From positions 806,001 through 870,000 of the forward strand of contig NZ_FNSR01000002.1 in NCBI RefSeq assembly GCF_900104845.1: a stretch of DNA of 64,000 nt, in the 5' to 3' direction. Position 1 is the first letter of the stretch. The number at the start of each line of letters is the position of its first letter. This DNA is from Paraburkholderia caballeronis (GTDB lineage Bacteria > Pseudomonadota > Gammaproteobacteria > Burkholderiales > Burkholderiaceae). Positions 25,252 to 57,078 of this stretch are shown here, piece by piece. The position numbers were made by a program, and so were the translations under genes. The notes beneath the pieces were generated by a model that saw only the letters and a list, made by a program, of their open reading frames with translations, was not told the DNA's origin and did no database searches.

Positions 25252-25329
25252 CGCGGCGGCGATCCGCGAGTCGAGCCACACACGCCGGCCCTCGTTGCAT
25301 CGGCGTCGGCATTCGCGTTATAGATCCGG

Positions 25330-26046
25330 CTAACGCGCGCCGTGCAGCGCGGGCCGCGCGGGAGCGCCCGGCCTCGGCCGGATCGACGCCGGACGCGCCG
25401 CGTTCGCCGCCGCGCCGCGCTCCCCATCGACCACCACGCTTTGAATCAACTGGTCCATCTCGCGGATGATGTCCGCGAGCACCGTCGTGATCACCGCGAA
25501 CTCGCGCCCGTACTGCCCGGCCCGCGCGGCCGAAATGCGCGCGTTCAGCGCGACGATGTTCGCCTGCATCGAGATGCTTGCGAGATGGTCGGCGATCGCG
25601 GCCTGGCGCTTCTGCGCGGCAGCCTCGATGCCGCGCATCTCGTGCTGGTACGCGAGCGTGATCTGTTGCAGCAGTTCGAGCAGCGGCGTCGCGTGCGCGA
25701 CCAGCGCGTCCACCGGCTCCGCGTCGCCGGTTCCGGCTTCGAGCGCCGCCAGCGCGCGCTCCGCGAGCGCCACGAAACGTCGAATGCGGTCGTCGGCCCG
25801 CGACGCGCCGAAATAAAGCTGCTGCAACGCGTCCGAGAACACGCCCGGCAGGCGCTCGTTGCCGGTCACGAGGTCGCCGTGCGTTGCCGCGAACGTCGCG
25901 ATGCAATCGCGCGCAATGGCCAGCGCAGCCGCATCGCCGTCGCGCGCCAGCAGCACGTGCAGGATCGCGCGCTGCGACAGCATCCGCTGCCGGCCCGACA
26001 GATTGATCAGTTCGCCTATTACCTGCCCCGAGATGTCGCTGCGCAT
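25330..26046 (-). CDS. PilJ-type N-terminal domain protein with a minimal chemoreceptor tip
   Basis: 238 residues without any membrane segment. The N-terminal part has the type IV pili methyl-accepting N-terminal signature INLSGRQRMLSQRAI at about 15-29, also found in nitrate sensors. The C-terminal part (about 165-215) resembles only the hairpin tip of chemoreceptors: ANIVALNARISAARAGQYGREF. The methylation helices and HAMP domain are absent, and a Pro/Ala-rich tail follows. It could be a soluble adaptor for a CheA/CheW array or a decayed receptor. Start at 26046 is chosen because the domain begins there; AAGGCGG lies 11 bases upstream. A strong terminator lies about 75 bases upstream. Confidence 0.72.
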   Translation of the reverse strand: MRSDISGQVIGELINLSGRQRMLSQRAILHVLLARDGDAAALAIARDCIATFAATHGDLVTGNERLPGVFSDALQQLYFGASRADDRIRRFVALAERALAALEAGTGDAEPVDALVAHATPLLELLQQITLAYQHEMRGIEAAAQKRQAAIADHLASISMQANIVALNARISAARAGQYGREFAVITTVLADIIREMDQLIQSVVVDGERGAAANAARPASIRPRPGAPARPALHGAR

Positions 26047-53956: not shown

Positions 53957-55153
53957 TCAAGCCGCCGCGTCGAGCCCGCGCGCGAGATCGGTGCGGATGT
54001 CCTGCGCGTTCTCCAACCCGACCGCGAGGCGGATCAGCCCTTCGGTGATGCCCGCCGCCGCGCGCGCTTCCGGCGTGATGCGGCCGTGCGTCGTCGTCGC
54101 CGGATGGGTGATCGTCGTGCGCGTGTCGCCGAGGTTGCCGGTGATCGAGCAGATCTTCGTGCTGTCGATCACGCGCCATGCGTTCTCGCGCTGCGCTTCC
54201 GGCGTGTCGCCCTTCAGCTCGAACGACACGATCGCGCCGCCCGCCTTCTGCTGACGCATCGCGAGCGCGTGCTGCGGATGCGACGCCAGCCCCGGATAAA
54301 ACACCCGCTTCACGGCCGGATGCGTTTCGAGCCAGCTCGCGACTTCGAGCGCGTTCGACGACTGCTTCTCGACGCGCAGCGACAGCGTCTCCATCCCCTT
54401 CAGCAGCACCCACGCGTTGAACGCGGACAGCGTCGGCCCCGCGCTGCGCACGAACGGGAACACCTTTTCCATGATGAATTTGCGCGAGCCCACCAGCGCG
54501 CCGCCGAGCACGCGGCCCTGGCCGTCGAGAAACTTGGTCGCCGAGTGCATCACGACGTCCGCGCCGAGCTTCAGCGGCTGCTGCAACGCCGGGCTGCAGA
54601 AACAGTTGTCGACGACGAACAGCGCGTTCGCGGCCTTCGCTATCTTGCCGATCGCCTCGATGTCCGCGACCTCGGTCAGCGGGTTCGACGGCGTTTCGAG
54701 GAAGAACATCTTCGTCTCGGGCCGCACCGCGTTTTTCCATGCGTCGAGGTCGGTCGGATCGACGAACGTCGTCGCGATGCCGAACTTGCTGAAGATCTGC
54801 GAGAACATGCCGAGCGTCGAGCCGAACAGGCTCTGCGAACTGACGATGTGGTCGCCGGCCTGCAAGGCCGACATCACGACCGACATGATCGCGGCCATCC
54901 CCGAGGCGGTCGCCATGCACGCCTCGCCGCCTTCCAGCGCCGCGAGCCGGTCCTGGAACATCGTGACGGTCGGGTTCGTGAAACGCGAGTACGTGTATGA
55001 GTCCTCGGAATTCTTGAAGCGTTCCGCGGCTTCGGCCGCGTTCGCGAAGCAGAAGCTCGACGTGAGGAACAGCGCCTCCGAATGCTCGTTGAAGTTGCTG
55101 CGCAGCGACCCCGAGCGCACGGCAAGGGTGTCGAAATTGAAGGTATCGTCCAT
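53957..55153 (-). CDS. metZ: O-succinylhomoserine sulfhydrylase
   Basis: PLP enzyme that makes homocysteine directly from O-succinylhomoserine and sulfide in methionine synthesis. 398 residues of the Cys/Met metabolism family: YSRFTNPTVTMFQ near residue 55, ASGMAAIMSV near 85, FLETPSNPL near 150, and the PLP lysine in SATKFLDGQGRVLGG near 205. The length and the YTYSRFTNPT segment fit MetZ rather than MetB or MetC. It lies behind its own leader with a SAM-II-like element and a terminator, so it is likely repressed when S-adenosylmethionine is plentiful (inference). Confidence 0.94.
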   Translation of the reverse strand: MDDTFNFDTLAVRSGSLRSNFNEHSEALFLTSSFCFANAAEAAERFKNSEDSYTYSRFTNPTVTMFQDRLAALEGGEACMATASGMAAIMSVVMSALQAGDHIVSSQSLFGSTLGMFSQIFSKFGIATTFVDPTDLDAWKNAVRPETKMFFLETPSNPLTEVADIEAIGKIAKAANALFVVDNCFCSPALQQPLKLGADVVMHSATKFLDGQGRVLGGALVGSRKFIMEKVFPFVRSAGPTLSAFNAWVLLKGMETLSLRVEKQSSNALEVASWLETHPAVKRVFYPGLASHPQHALAMRQQKAGGAIVSFELKGDTPEAQRENAWRVIDSTKICSITGNLGDTRTTITHPATTTHGRITPEARAAAGITEGLIRLAVGLENAQDIRTDLARGLDAAA

Positions 55154-55197
55154 GTTCGTTGTAGTTCCGTGGCAGGCCGGCGAGGCGGGAAGGCAAC

Positions 55198-55233
55198 AAA
55201 AAAGCCCGCTTTGCGTCGGCAGAAGCGGGCTTT
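55198..55233 (-). terminator. Intrinsic terminator inside the metZ leader
   Basis: Arms 55201-55211 and 55223-55233 pair over 11 bases, and the minus strand continues into six U residues (A run 55198-55203). It lies 45 bases upstream of the metZ ATG and downstream of the riboswitch candidate, so it could act as the expression platform or end the purF transcript. Confidence 0.85.
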
Positions 55234-55294
55234 GGTGGATTCGGGTTACCGGTCAGCGGTGAGCGTCGGGCGTCGTTTGCTGCACTTCGGCGCC

Positions 55295-55353
55295 GGTCGC
55301 TTTAGCTGTTTTGGGTTGCCCCGCGTCCGCAAGCTGAGATCAAATCGACGCAA
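55295..55353 (-). promoter_or_regulatory. SAM-II-like riboswitch candidate in the metZ leader
   Basis: Read on the minus strand: P1 stem GCGTC (55351-55347) with GACGC (55327-55323); its 19-base loop starts GATTTGA and ends GCTTGCG; then a small hairpin GGGGCAACCC with a GCAA tetraloop (55322-55313); then AAAACAGCTAAAGCG (55312-55298). GAUUUG, CUUGC and GCUAAA in this order are the conserved elements of the SAM-II (SAM_alpha) family. AGCU in the loop can pair with AGCU downstream as a short pseudoknot. The hairpin insert is unlike the minimal form. Confidence 0.65.
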
Positions 55354-55359
55354 GCCCGT

Positions 55360-55365
55360 ATCCTA
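55360..55365 (-). promoter_or_regulatory. -10-like element of metZ
   Basis: TAGGAT on the minus strand, placed so that transcription would begin at the 5' edge of the riboswitch P1 stem. No -35 match at usual spacing. Confidence 0.45.
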
Positions 55366-55433
55366 TCACGGGATCGCGGCCCGCACGCGCGGCCGCCGCA
55401 ATCCTCGTTCGTCGACGCGGGCTCGCGCCGCGC

Positions 55434-56978
55434 TTACTCGACCGACAGTTGCAGGTGCAGTTGCGAACGCGCGCCGCCGTCCATCGCGTCGCTGGCCGCG
55501 TCGCGGTCCGACTGCGCGGACGGCGCGAGCCGCGCGGTTTCGACACGGTCGAGATACGCGGTCGTCACGTCGCCGGTGATGTAGTCGCCGTCGAAGCACG
55601 ACGCCTCGAAGCCCTTCAGCGCCGGGTTGATGTCGCGAATCGCCTGCTTCAGGTCGCGGACGTCCTGATACACGAGGTGATCCGCGCCGATGATGCGCGC
55701 CACTTCCTCGTCGGTGCGGCCGTGCGCGACCAGCTCGCCGCGCGTCGGCATGTCGATGCCGTACACGTTCGGATACTTCACCGGCGGCGCGGCCGACGCG
55801 AAGATCACCTTGCTCGCGCCCGCGTCGCGCGCCATCTGCACGATTTCCTGCGAGGTGGTGCCGCGCACGATCGAATCGTCGATGATGAGCACGTTCTTGC
55901 CCTTGAACTCGATGCCCATCGCGTTCAGCTTCTGGCGCACCGACTTCTTGCGCATGGCCTGGCCCGGCATGATGAACGTGCGGCCGACGTAGCGGTTCTT
56001 GAAGAAGCCTTCGCGATACTCGACGCCGAGTTTCGCGGCGACCTGCATCGCGGCCGGGCGCGACGAATCGGGAATCGGCATCACGACGTCGATCTTCACG
56101 TCCGGCAGCACGCGGCGGATCTTCTCCGCGAGATAGTCGCCCATCCGCAGGCGCGCGTTGTAGACCGGCACGCCGTCGAGCACCGAGTCCGGACGCGCAA
56201 GGTACACGAGTTCGAAGATGCACGGGTTGAGGCTCGGTTTCTCCGCGCATTGCTGCGCGTGGAGGTTGCCTTCGAAGTCGACGAATACCGCCTCGCCCGG
56301 CTCGACGTCGCGGACGAACTCGAAGCCGATGCCTTCGAGCGCGACCGACTCCGACGCGACCATCCATTCGGTGCCTTCCGGCGTTTCGAGCTTGCCGATG
56401 CACAGCGGACGGATGCCGAACGGATCGCGGAACGCAAGCAGCCCGTAACCGGCGATCAGCGACACGATCGCATACGAGCCGCGCACGCGGCGATGCACGC
56501 CGGACACCGCCTTGAAGAGCGCCGCCGGATCCAGTTGCAGGCCGGAACTCGCAAGCTGCACTTCGTGCGCAAGCACGTTGAGCAGCACTTCGGTGTCGGA
56601 GTTGGTGTTGATGTGCCGGCGATCGACGCGGAACATCTCTTCCTTCAGCTGCGGCCAGTTGGTCAGGTTGCCGTTGTGCGCGAGGATGATGCCGAACGGC
56701 GCGTTCACGTAGAACGGCTGGGCCTCCTCTTCGCTCGACGCGGAACCGGCCGTCGGGTAGCGCACCTGGCCGATGCCGCTGGTGCCGGGCAAGCTGCGCA
56801 TGTTGCGCGTGCGGAACACGTCGCGCACCATGCCGTTCGCCTTGTGCATGTGGAAAGTGCTGCCGTCCGCGGTGGCGATGCCGGCCGCGTCCTGACCGCG
56901 ATGCTGCAGCAGCAGCAGGCTGTCATAGATGAGCTGGTTGACGGGAGAGCGGGAAACTACGCCTACGATGCCGCACAT
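55434..56978 (-). CDS. purF: Amidophosphoribosyltransferase
   Basis: Transfers glutamine amide nitrogen to PRPP, the first committed step of purine synthesis. 514 residues starting MCGIVGVVS, so Cys2 becomes the N-terminal nucleophile of the glutaminase domain (1 to about 240). The PRTase domain has the PRPP loop VLIIDDSIVRGTTS near residue 370. AAGGAC six bases before the ATG fixes the start at 56978; 20 extra open codons upstream would hide the catalytic Cys. It is downstream of cvpA, the usual partner. Confidence 0.97.
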   Translation of the reverse strand: MCGIVGVVSRSPVNQLIYDSLLLLQHRGQDAAGIATADGSTFHMHKANGMVRDVFRTRNMRSLPGTSGIGQVRYPTAGSASSEEEAQPFYVNAPFGIILAHNGNLTNWPQLKEEMFRVDRRHINTNSDTEVLLNVLAHEVQLASSGLQLDPAALFKAVSGVHRRVRGSYAIVSLIAGYGLLAFRDPFGIRPLCIGKLETPEGTEWMVASESVALEGIGFEFVRDVEPGEAVFVDFEGNLHAQQCAEKPSLNPCIFELVYLARPDSVLDGVPVYNARLRMGDYLAEKIRRVLPDVKIDVVMPIPDSSRPAAMQVAAKLGVEYREGFFKNRYVGRTFIMPGQAMRKKSVRQKLNAMGIEFKGKNVLIIDDSIVRGTTSQEIVQMARDAGASKVIFASAAPPVKYPNVYGIDMPTRGELVAHGRTDEEVARIIGADHLVYQDVRDLKQAIRDINPALKGFEASCFDGDYITGDVTTAYLDRVETARLAPSAQSDRDAASDAMDGGARSQLHLQLSVE

Positions 56979-57078
56979 GGCAGGTCCTTCAAGAAAGCGA
57001 AATCGATTGCGGCGGCCGGGCGGGATCCGGCTACGCACCGCGGGGCTGCGGGTCCGTCACGGCGCCGCATACCGCACG

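Follow-up and report, generated by a model that had tools for sequence, protein, structure and literature searches.

The region between purF and metZ of Paraburkholderia caballeronis poses the question of whether the RNA leading into metZ carries a riboswitch of the SAM-II class and, if so, how binding of S-adenosylmethionine (SAM) would be passed on to expression of the gene. The original prediction, made on a 64,000-nucleotide stretch of contig NZ_FNSR01000002.1 (the window), was of a betaproteobacterial SAM-II variant that has a GNRA-capped hairpin inserted after stem P1 and possibly works by termination. Based on homology, covariation of P1 and P2, the hairpin inserts, a promoter-like element, the terminator and the gene context, we consider it very likely that a true SAM-II-type riboswitch variant, SAM-sensing and transcription-terminating, lies before metZ. 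We infer SAM as the ligand, an OFF polarity and the choice of antiterminator strand. What is new here is most likely the variant structure and the joining of orphan records, and not the principle.

Anatomy and class of the metZ leader element

The element lies on the minus strand of the purF/metZ intergenic region (Table 1). The predicted order of a -10-like element, a P1 stem around GAUUUG and CUUGC and then GCUAAA is present in full on that strand, and the gene behind it is metZ as proposed. The 11-bp terminator is also in place, although 44 bases rather than the predicted 45 separate the end of the U run (55198) from the metZ ATG (55153). A spacer of 63 bases lies between GCUAAAGCGA and the terminator hairpin. 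The expected conservation in related leaders was found: across 28 distinct genus leaders the aptamer is 99% conserved, whereas the spacer that follows it reaches 74%. The metZ gene of this genome is 88-90% identical to those of the nearest named Burkholderia and Paraburkholderia loci, and the genus group includes one locus that matches Paraburkholderia kururiensis without a difference over 2600 bases.

Table 1 Features of the metZ leader and its neighbors, in window positions
Feature	Position	Strand	Remarks
purF, upstream neighbor, same strand as metZ	55434..57038	-	named by NCBIfam
RF02424 Bp2_287 'sRNA' match, strand opposite to the riboswitch	55199..55386	+	111.8 bits, gathering score 70
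Extended -10 promoter element TGATAGGAT	55360..55368	-	TGnTAnnnT in 76/77 distinct leaders (a raw count, without a computed chance level)
Whole SAM-II-type aptamer	55293..55352	-	R1 45.8 bits, E 6.3e-12; RF00521 17.9 bits, below gathering score
P1 5' strand; core GCGUC 55351-55347, CUUGCGUC if extended by G-U pairs	55347..55354	-	P1 covariation
Loop L1 GAUUUGAUCUCAGCUUGCG; GAUUUG and UUGC conserved; UC 55337-55336 is the P2b 5' side	55328..55346	-	
GAUUUG	55346-55341	-	
CUUGC	55333-55329	-	
P1 3' strand GACGC	55323..55327	-	
Inserted hairpin GGG-GCAA-CCC, GNRA loop, between P1 and linker	55313..55322	-	same-site hairpins in relatives
A-rich linker AAAACA	55307..55312	-	lacks the U invariant in 30 canonical aptamers
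P2 3' strand GCUAAAGCGA; GA 55298-55297 pairs with UC 55337-55336	55297..55306	-	
GCUAAA	55306-55301	-	
Intrinsic terminator, 11 bp plus U run; loop CUGCCGACGCA 55222-55212	55198..55233	-	
Terminator arms AAAGCCCGCUU/AAGCGGGCUUU	55233-55201	-	U run extends to 55198
CGACGCAA in terminator, complement of P1 5' strand UUGCGUCG	55211..55218	-	candidate antiterminator, doubtful
metZ, O-succinylhomoserine sulfhydrylase, 398 aa; ATG at 55153	53957..55153	-	NCBIfam NF006003, 741 bits

Scanning with covariance models, through which the element was expected to be recognized, gave a divided answer. The Rfam model SAM_alpha (RF00521) scored the metZ leader at 17.9 bits, below its gathering score of 36, and had no match at E<=0.1 anywhere in this genome, and the long-loop model RF01726, also proposed for this check, gave no row in the window up to E 10, on the premise that it is one of the 4227 families in the library. 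At E<=0.1 RF00521 detected plain SAM-II in 86 of 150 genomes of the order (26 of them above the cut-off), a multi-genome scan run with stricter filters that lose weak matches. Thirty loci found in this way, none of them from the window's family, share one common anatomy, have metX or metZ behind the match in 26 cases, and carry canonical aptamers that align with the metZ leader element. A model, R1, was built from these 30 aligned aptamers of other Burkholderiales families with P1 as its sole structure. The metZ element is the best R1 match in the window (Table 1); the second-best (25283-25342, 15.1 bits) was set aside as probable chance. On the whole 7.1-Mb genome R1 found metZ at E 7e-10 and metX at 4.6e-4 and 0.014, the latter two being halves of one element split by a long insert, and the next matches were at E 0.498 and 0.868. 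All 43 loci submitted, a subset of those collected, were matched at E 3e-5 or better. At E<=0.01, and again with the stricter filters, R1 had a match in 98 of 185 genomes of the class, and class-wide matches (for example L247-L276) reach 77 bits. The conserved core GAUUU(G), UUGC and GCUAAA is present in SAM-II order, and these core bases line the SAM pocket of SAM-II. The R1 match, the covariation of P1 and P2 and the anatomy shared with the SAM-II loci of the order thus support assignment to a SAM-II-type class.

Covariation in P1, which had been proposed as a check, was observed, and P1 is 100% paired in the 30 canonical aptamers (29 distinct). In the same aptamers P2b is 70% paired, and in three of its four pairs both partners have changed. 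None of 500 shuffles equalled the observed covariation score or fraction of paired cells, and sliding the pseudoknot partners lowered the paired cells from 91% to 33-53%. Five pairs in all have changed in both partners, a number that 62 of 500 shuffles also reach. The AGCU/AGCU pseudoknot originally proposed was rejected. It is 83.6% paired in the 30 aptamers, but no pair has changed on both sides and its values are identical to those of every shuffle, whereas a different register covaries. Among 146 distinct insert-bearing aptamers P1 pairs 1-4 form in all (pair 2 being CG in 95 and UA in 49). At the innermost P2b position only C-G and U-G pairs occur, which makes it uninformative; the next three are formed in 125, 71 and 87 of the 146, each more than in all 500 shuffles, although the shuffles ignore relatedness and all 29 metX-type rows share one P2b. 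In the Burkholderiaceae metZ group the inner two P2b pairs form in 43 of 43 aptamers, including one CG and one UG that replace UA, whereas the outer two form in only 35 and 53%. The window itself has a P2 of GC:GC, U-A and UC:GA only, and its P2b consists of just two pairs.

The inserted hairpin and the genes behind the aptamers

A short unstructured A-rich linker with AAAU before GCUAAA is usual for SAM-II, although not class-defining; the window instead has the hairpin insert and a linker without the U. To describe the insert we surveyed 180 distinct aptamers, a selected set in which the linker after the P1 core is 12-14 bases in 28 and longer in 152, a split that is not a frequency. The 152 include L057, whose 15-base unstructured linker was counted as an insert, and the 146 insert-bearing aptamers of the P2b analysis were parsed by a slightly different rule. 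A stem of at least 3 bp is possible in 150 of the 152 long linkers by a lenient test that had no shuffled control, and a stem of at least 4 bp in 107, compared with a mean of 67 and a maximum of 75 upon shuffling. The mean folding energy of the 152 sequences is -10.1 versus -4.8 kcal/mol when shuffled. In the 10-base metZ-type insert every loop seen is GNRA (GCAA, GAAA, GCGA, GUGA or GUAA), and larger hairpins occupy the same post-P1 site in other genera. These data support the predicted GNRA hairpin between P1 and the GCUAAA strand, although in the window it competes with a longer P1. The GGG of the insert could instead lengthen P1 to 8 bp, and when the aptamer was enforced in the full-length fold of the window the 8-bp P1 was preferred over the hairpin. 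In L107-L112, however, GCGUC is preceded by an A, for which the following G is no pairing partner, and hence P1 is not extendable there, yet such a hairpin is kept. The linker of the Burkholderiaceae metZ group mostly ends in (G/A)AAACA and is without the U found in every aptamer of the canonical set.

A pattern scan of named genomes (GAUUUG, CAGCUUGCGG and GCUAAAGCG with a gap of 20-50 bases, which by design finds only long linkers) matched at least 119 stretches, counts that are not frequencies. Among the matches listed are the genera Burkholderia, Paraburkholderia, Caballeronia, Trinickia, Pandoraea and Chitinasiproducens, together with Undibacterium, Derxia, Methyloversatilis and Legionella. 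A P1 of 4 bp or more, its 5' strand lying outside the search pattern, is present in 117 of the 119 matches listed. In a flank-shuffle control on 80 of these, such a P1 formed in 78 versus 56-60 after shuffling, a drop that is small because most P1 stems share GCGCC. The next gene is metZ in 58, metX in 34, metN in 13 and metH in 6 of the 119 listed, so that 111 long-linker matches precede one of these four genes, and 8 were unassigned. Of the latter, three loci have genes resembling related PLP sulfhydrylases (L127, L174 and L199), L154, L195 and L220 are without an ORF, and L144 and L194, both subjected to domain scans, have other genes. Assignments were made by tblastn (at least 40% identity) except for the scanned MetN and MetH proteins. 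One protein was scanned for each: for MetN, Pfam found NIL and ABC domains and the NCBIfam MetN model scored 372 bits, below its cut-off of 500, whereas MetH was scanned with Pfam. The metN loci are labelled Legionella, Fluoribacter, Tatlockia, Legionellaceae or Legionellales. In these, the hairpin-bearing SAM-II element lies before the gene of the methionine importer ATPase (L124, L128, L133, L147, L151, L168 and L183, with more loci from Legionellaceae and relatives in L189, L201, L213, L217, L224 and L228). The idea of a betaproteobacterial variant at metZ thus holds for metZ but is too narrow, because the variant is neither only betaproteobacterial (metN in Legionellaceae) nor confined to metZ (metX in the same genome).

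Two further observations concern other arrangements. A Phycisphaerae contig (L194, 955-1014) has a similar element with a 4-bp P1, a hairpin and GCUAAAGCG before a ThiF-rhodanese gene. Apparent tandems of SAM-II-type aptamers are found in L278 (reverse, ~142 and 253), L279 (190 and 310), L280 (201 and 302), L277 (~141-217 and 268) and L053 (1516 and 1679). Two aptamers follow each other before various genes, one of them metF-like by eye, and in the tandems inspected by eye a U-tailed hairpin stands between the two. A SAM-II/SAM-V tandem has been published for Pelagibacter; the Rfam search of our tandem loci gave no SAM-V row.

The second copy of this genome lies in the metX leader and consists of an aptamer with a long hairpin (L031, 1270-1400). 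The metX leader was matched in 58 of 58 genomes of the genus, and the aptamer is present in all 30 leaders examined. Behind it UUUAGCC, the complement of GGCUAAA, occurs in 26 of 30 leaders, and in 28 of 30 a GCCGCC is able to cover the Shine-Dalgarno sequence GGCGG. In the metX leader of this genome, enforcing the aptamer switches the predicted fold between the UUUAGCC and GCCGCC pairings. Given these pairings and the modelled switch, the metX copy looks translational and the metZ copy transcriptional.

Probable SAM-dependent termination at metZ and its alternatives

Comparative evidence supports the predicted transcription terminator behind the aptamer, through which SAM would act. The metZ leader RNA would start a few bases before P1 and fold into P1, the GAUUUG/UUGC loop and the P2 pseudoknot with GCUAAAGCGA, with the GNRA-capped hairpin following P1. 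When SAM is plentiful its binding would hold the aptamer together, the 11-bp hairpin would form and transcription would stop after roughly 150-160 nt, yielding a short leader RNA. Under SAM shortage the leader would refold and RNA polymerase would read into metZ. Two strands are candidates for the antiterminator, P2 3' and P1 5'. In the complete leader the terminator is predicted whether the aptamer is enforced (-49.7 kcal/mol) or free (-58.1 kcal/mol; pseudoknot and ligand are uncounted), and hence a switch, if there is one, has to be kinetic. As long as the terminator is incomplete, the folds predicted with the aptamer enforced or free do differ. At nascent lengths of 147 and 150 bases the free fold shows pairing of the P1 5' strand with CGACGCAA of the terminator (-47.8 versus -34.2 and -50.6 versus -39.5 kcal/mol, again with ligand and pseudoknot uncounted).

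The loop analysis used 77 distinct leaders with a recognizable terminator. From a separate comparison of terminators, eight further loci in which none matched the search expression were dropped (L147, L158, L183, L209, L213, L220, L221 and L224). The Thr_leader model RF00506 covers the terminator of the window but scores below threshold (24.1 bits, gathering score 55), as do the mir-661 and asX2 matches near the metZ element. In a tally made by hand over 97 genomes of the genus, 65 match the aptamer part, 24 the terminator only (G008 in part), 1 another bit and 7 nothing. These 24 terminator-only genomes contrast with the metX leader, which matched throughout its 58. From purF to the terminator, none of eight terminator-only loci (L311-L318) has GAUUUG or GCUAAA in the metZ direction. 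All eight keep the terminator behind purF, roughly 30-80 bases after it by eye, and seven keep the [CU]GACGC loop (L317 differs). metZ follows in L311, L312, L314, L317 and L318 and as a remnant in L313, whereas no metZ lies within the examined stretch of L315 and L316. The terminator is thus not kept for the aptamer alone, and something else, perhaps the UGC-CGAC-GCA mini-stem within the loop, accounts for the conservation of the loop. Nor is the terminator motif a genomic repeat, since 38 of 94 genomes have it, each at a single site. Because relatives lacking the aptamer retain the terminator and mostly its loop, both strands are treated as no more than candidate antiterminators. SAM-dependent termination at metZ is likely.

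Two antiterminators were weighed within the same riboswitch. In the classical arrangement the P2 3' strand (AAGCG…GGC) would pair with the terminator 5' arm (GCC…CGCUU), which we regard as a real possibility, although somewhat short of an even chance. The predicted duplex is -12.3 kcal/mol in the window and reaches -13.3 to -14.3 kcal/mol in six leaders that are without the loop complement (L121-L123, L146, L148 and L164, the last three from Pandoraea), but averages just -9.7 kcal/mol, with interruptions, over the 68 leaders having the loop motif. The other arrangement, in which SAM would lock the P1 5' strand UUGCGUCG in P1 and so keep it from CGACGCAA, allowing the terminator to form, is more doubtful. 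Its attraction is an exact 8-bp complement in the window, a terminator-loop [CU]GACGC motif shared by 68 of 77 distinct leaders, and nascent minimum free energy folds that pair at least five of these P1-5'/loop bases in 71 of 77 leaders versus 130 of 385 with shuffled loops. Moreover, in the 28 genus leaders the loop is 97% conserved versus 74% for the spacer. However, strand and loop hardly vary and hence allow no covariation test, the aptamer-less relatives keep the terminator (8/8) and mostly the loop (7/8) even where no intact metZ follows (three loci), and in the window the P2-3'/5'-arm pairing is about equally stable (-12.3 versus -12.5 kcal/mol).

The same relatives could be read to mean that the terminator is mainly the constitutive end of purF, with the aptamer acting through mRNA stability or not at all, since three of the eight that keep it have no intact metZ. 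We consider this improbable because the TGnTAnnnT element lies between purF and the aptamer in nearly all leaders (Table 1), which places the terminator inside the metZ leader, and because the aptamer itself is so strictly conserved in the genus. Loss of the linker U and gain of the hairpin in the Burkholderiaceae metZ group would be consistent with a ligand that is a relative of SAM, but GAUUUG, UUGC and GCUAAA are intact and the genes are the same methionine genes, and thus a ligand other than SAM seems very improbable. A SAM-sensing, transcription-terminating SAM-II variant remains the preferred reading. A much broader proposal is that a hairpin-bearing SAM-II subclass, which current models overlook, is a main SAM sensor of metZ, metX, metH and Legionellaceae metN in many beta- and some gammaproteobacteria, that the pocket side of the Burkholderiaceae metZ aptamers has been remodelled by the hairpin and by loss of the linker U, that switching in these proceeds through the P1 5' strand and not P2, and that the metX copy of the same genome acts on translation. 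Taken as a whole this is unlikely.

The opposite-strand sRNA family and known systems

The only Rfam match above threshold in the whole 64-kb window is RF02424 (111.8 bits), on the plus strand. Up to E 1, eight insert-bearing leaders (L031, L147, L167, L168, L141, L174, L117 and L121) were matched by neither RF00521 nor RF01726, and a ninth, the outlier L194, likewise had no RF01726 row. RF02424 lies opposite SAM-II aptamers in L117, L121, L141 and L174 (above its cut-off only in L117 and L121). It is also seen opposite aptamers in L277, L278, L279 and L053, there below its cut-off. The family originated in an sRNA screen that combined computation with RT-PCR (Khoo 2012), a report whose available text places Bp2_Cand287 before metZ/metX and suggests a cis-acting methionine element. 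That the plus-strand sRNA is the functional product and the minus-strand resemblance incidental has this origin and the 111.8-bit score in its favor, but is scarcely credible, because GAUUUG, UUGC and GCUAAA, like P1/P2 and the long U run, are all oriented with metZ on the minus strand and RF02424 lies opposite aptamers at the eight other loci. Sequence features favor the metZ strand as the transcribed one, and RF02424 is probably a strand error, the riboswitch having been read backwards.

Leader RNAs of this kind seem already to have been reported as sRNAs. In B. thailandensis BTH_s31, of 143 nt, was detected (PMC4035088), and a review of Bcc sRNAs (PMC10987360) equates RIT77 with BTH_s31 and Bp2_287, gives 135 nt by coordinates and describes it as up in C. 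elegans infection. Measured from a point four bases upstream of P1 through the last U of the run, ten Burkholderia leaders have lengths of 142-143 in eight cases and of 149 and 151 in the other two. If our reading is true, RIT77/BTH_s31 levels would report SAM supply and not a trans-acting sRNA function. Among the Rfam matches at B. cenocepacia start sites the available text of Sass 2015 names SAH and sucA, with SAM-II unmentioned there.

On the present reading a single object would account for the unassigned betaproteobacterial metXZ element, for leader RNAs described under the name of sRNAs and for an Rfam 'sRNA' family whose model probably describes a riboswitch in reverse. The reading further points to a tolerance of SAM-II for hairpins of many sizes after P1, for which a revised covariance model should leave room, and adds methionine uptake in Legionellaceae to the predicted SAM-II targets. 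In the open-licence literature, as far as its texts were available, we found no paper naming a hairpin-bearing SAM-II variant at Burkholderia metZ or in Legionella.

Of the known systems, SAM-II (RF00521, SAM_alpha, the metA motif) shares P1, the GAUUU/UUGC/GCUAAA core, the P2 pseudoknot, a location near the transcription start, methionine genes and often a terminator. The element described here differs in the hairpin after P1, the absent linker U, a P2b of two pairs and a score of 17.9 bits against the RF00521 gathering score of 36. According to the available text of Corbino 2005, SAM-II binds SAM, needs P2, has its start site just before P1 and in many cases is followed by a terminator. That text also places SAM-II in other proteobacterial lineages, with Bordetella bronchiseptica and Coxiella burnetii in a figure, and hence SAM-II was already known from betaproteobacteria. 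SAM-II long loops (RF01726, Weinberg 2010) is likewise a SAM-II variant with enlarged loops but was reported from Bacteroidetes and marine samples, a comparison made by description and model scan. Bp2_287/BTH_s31/RIT77 is the same DNA by its RF02424 match and lies upstream of metZ and metX, whereas Rfam models the opposite strand as an sRNA gene and the sources available make no SAM-II assignment. The SAM-II riboswitch of S. meliloti metZ with its sRNA RZ (Scheuer 2022) also lies before metZ, is predicted to terminate in response to SAM and gives a short leader RNA that rises at high SAM, but is alphaproteobacterial. The metXZ element (Leyn 2014, PMC4239095) is found in betaproteobacterial metX/metZ leaders, including 8 of 8 Burkholderia genomes, and has a pseudoknot and a following terminator. 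In the available text it has six conserved regions and no assigned ligand, and SAM_alpha is said to occur only in Rhizobiales and Rhodobacterales. Its place, genes, pseudoknot and terminator agree with those of the metZ/metX aptamer described here, with which it may be identical, but it was reported as one copy per genome, before metXW in 30 of 35, whereas in this genome metX and metZ both carry one.
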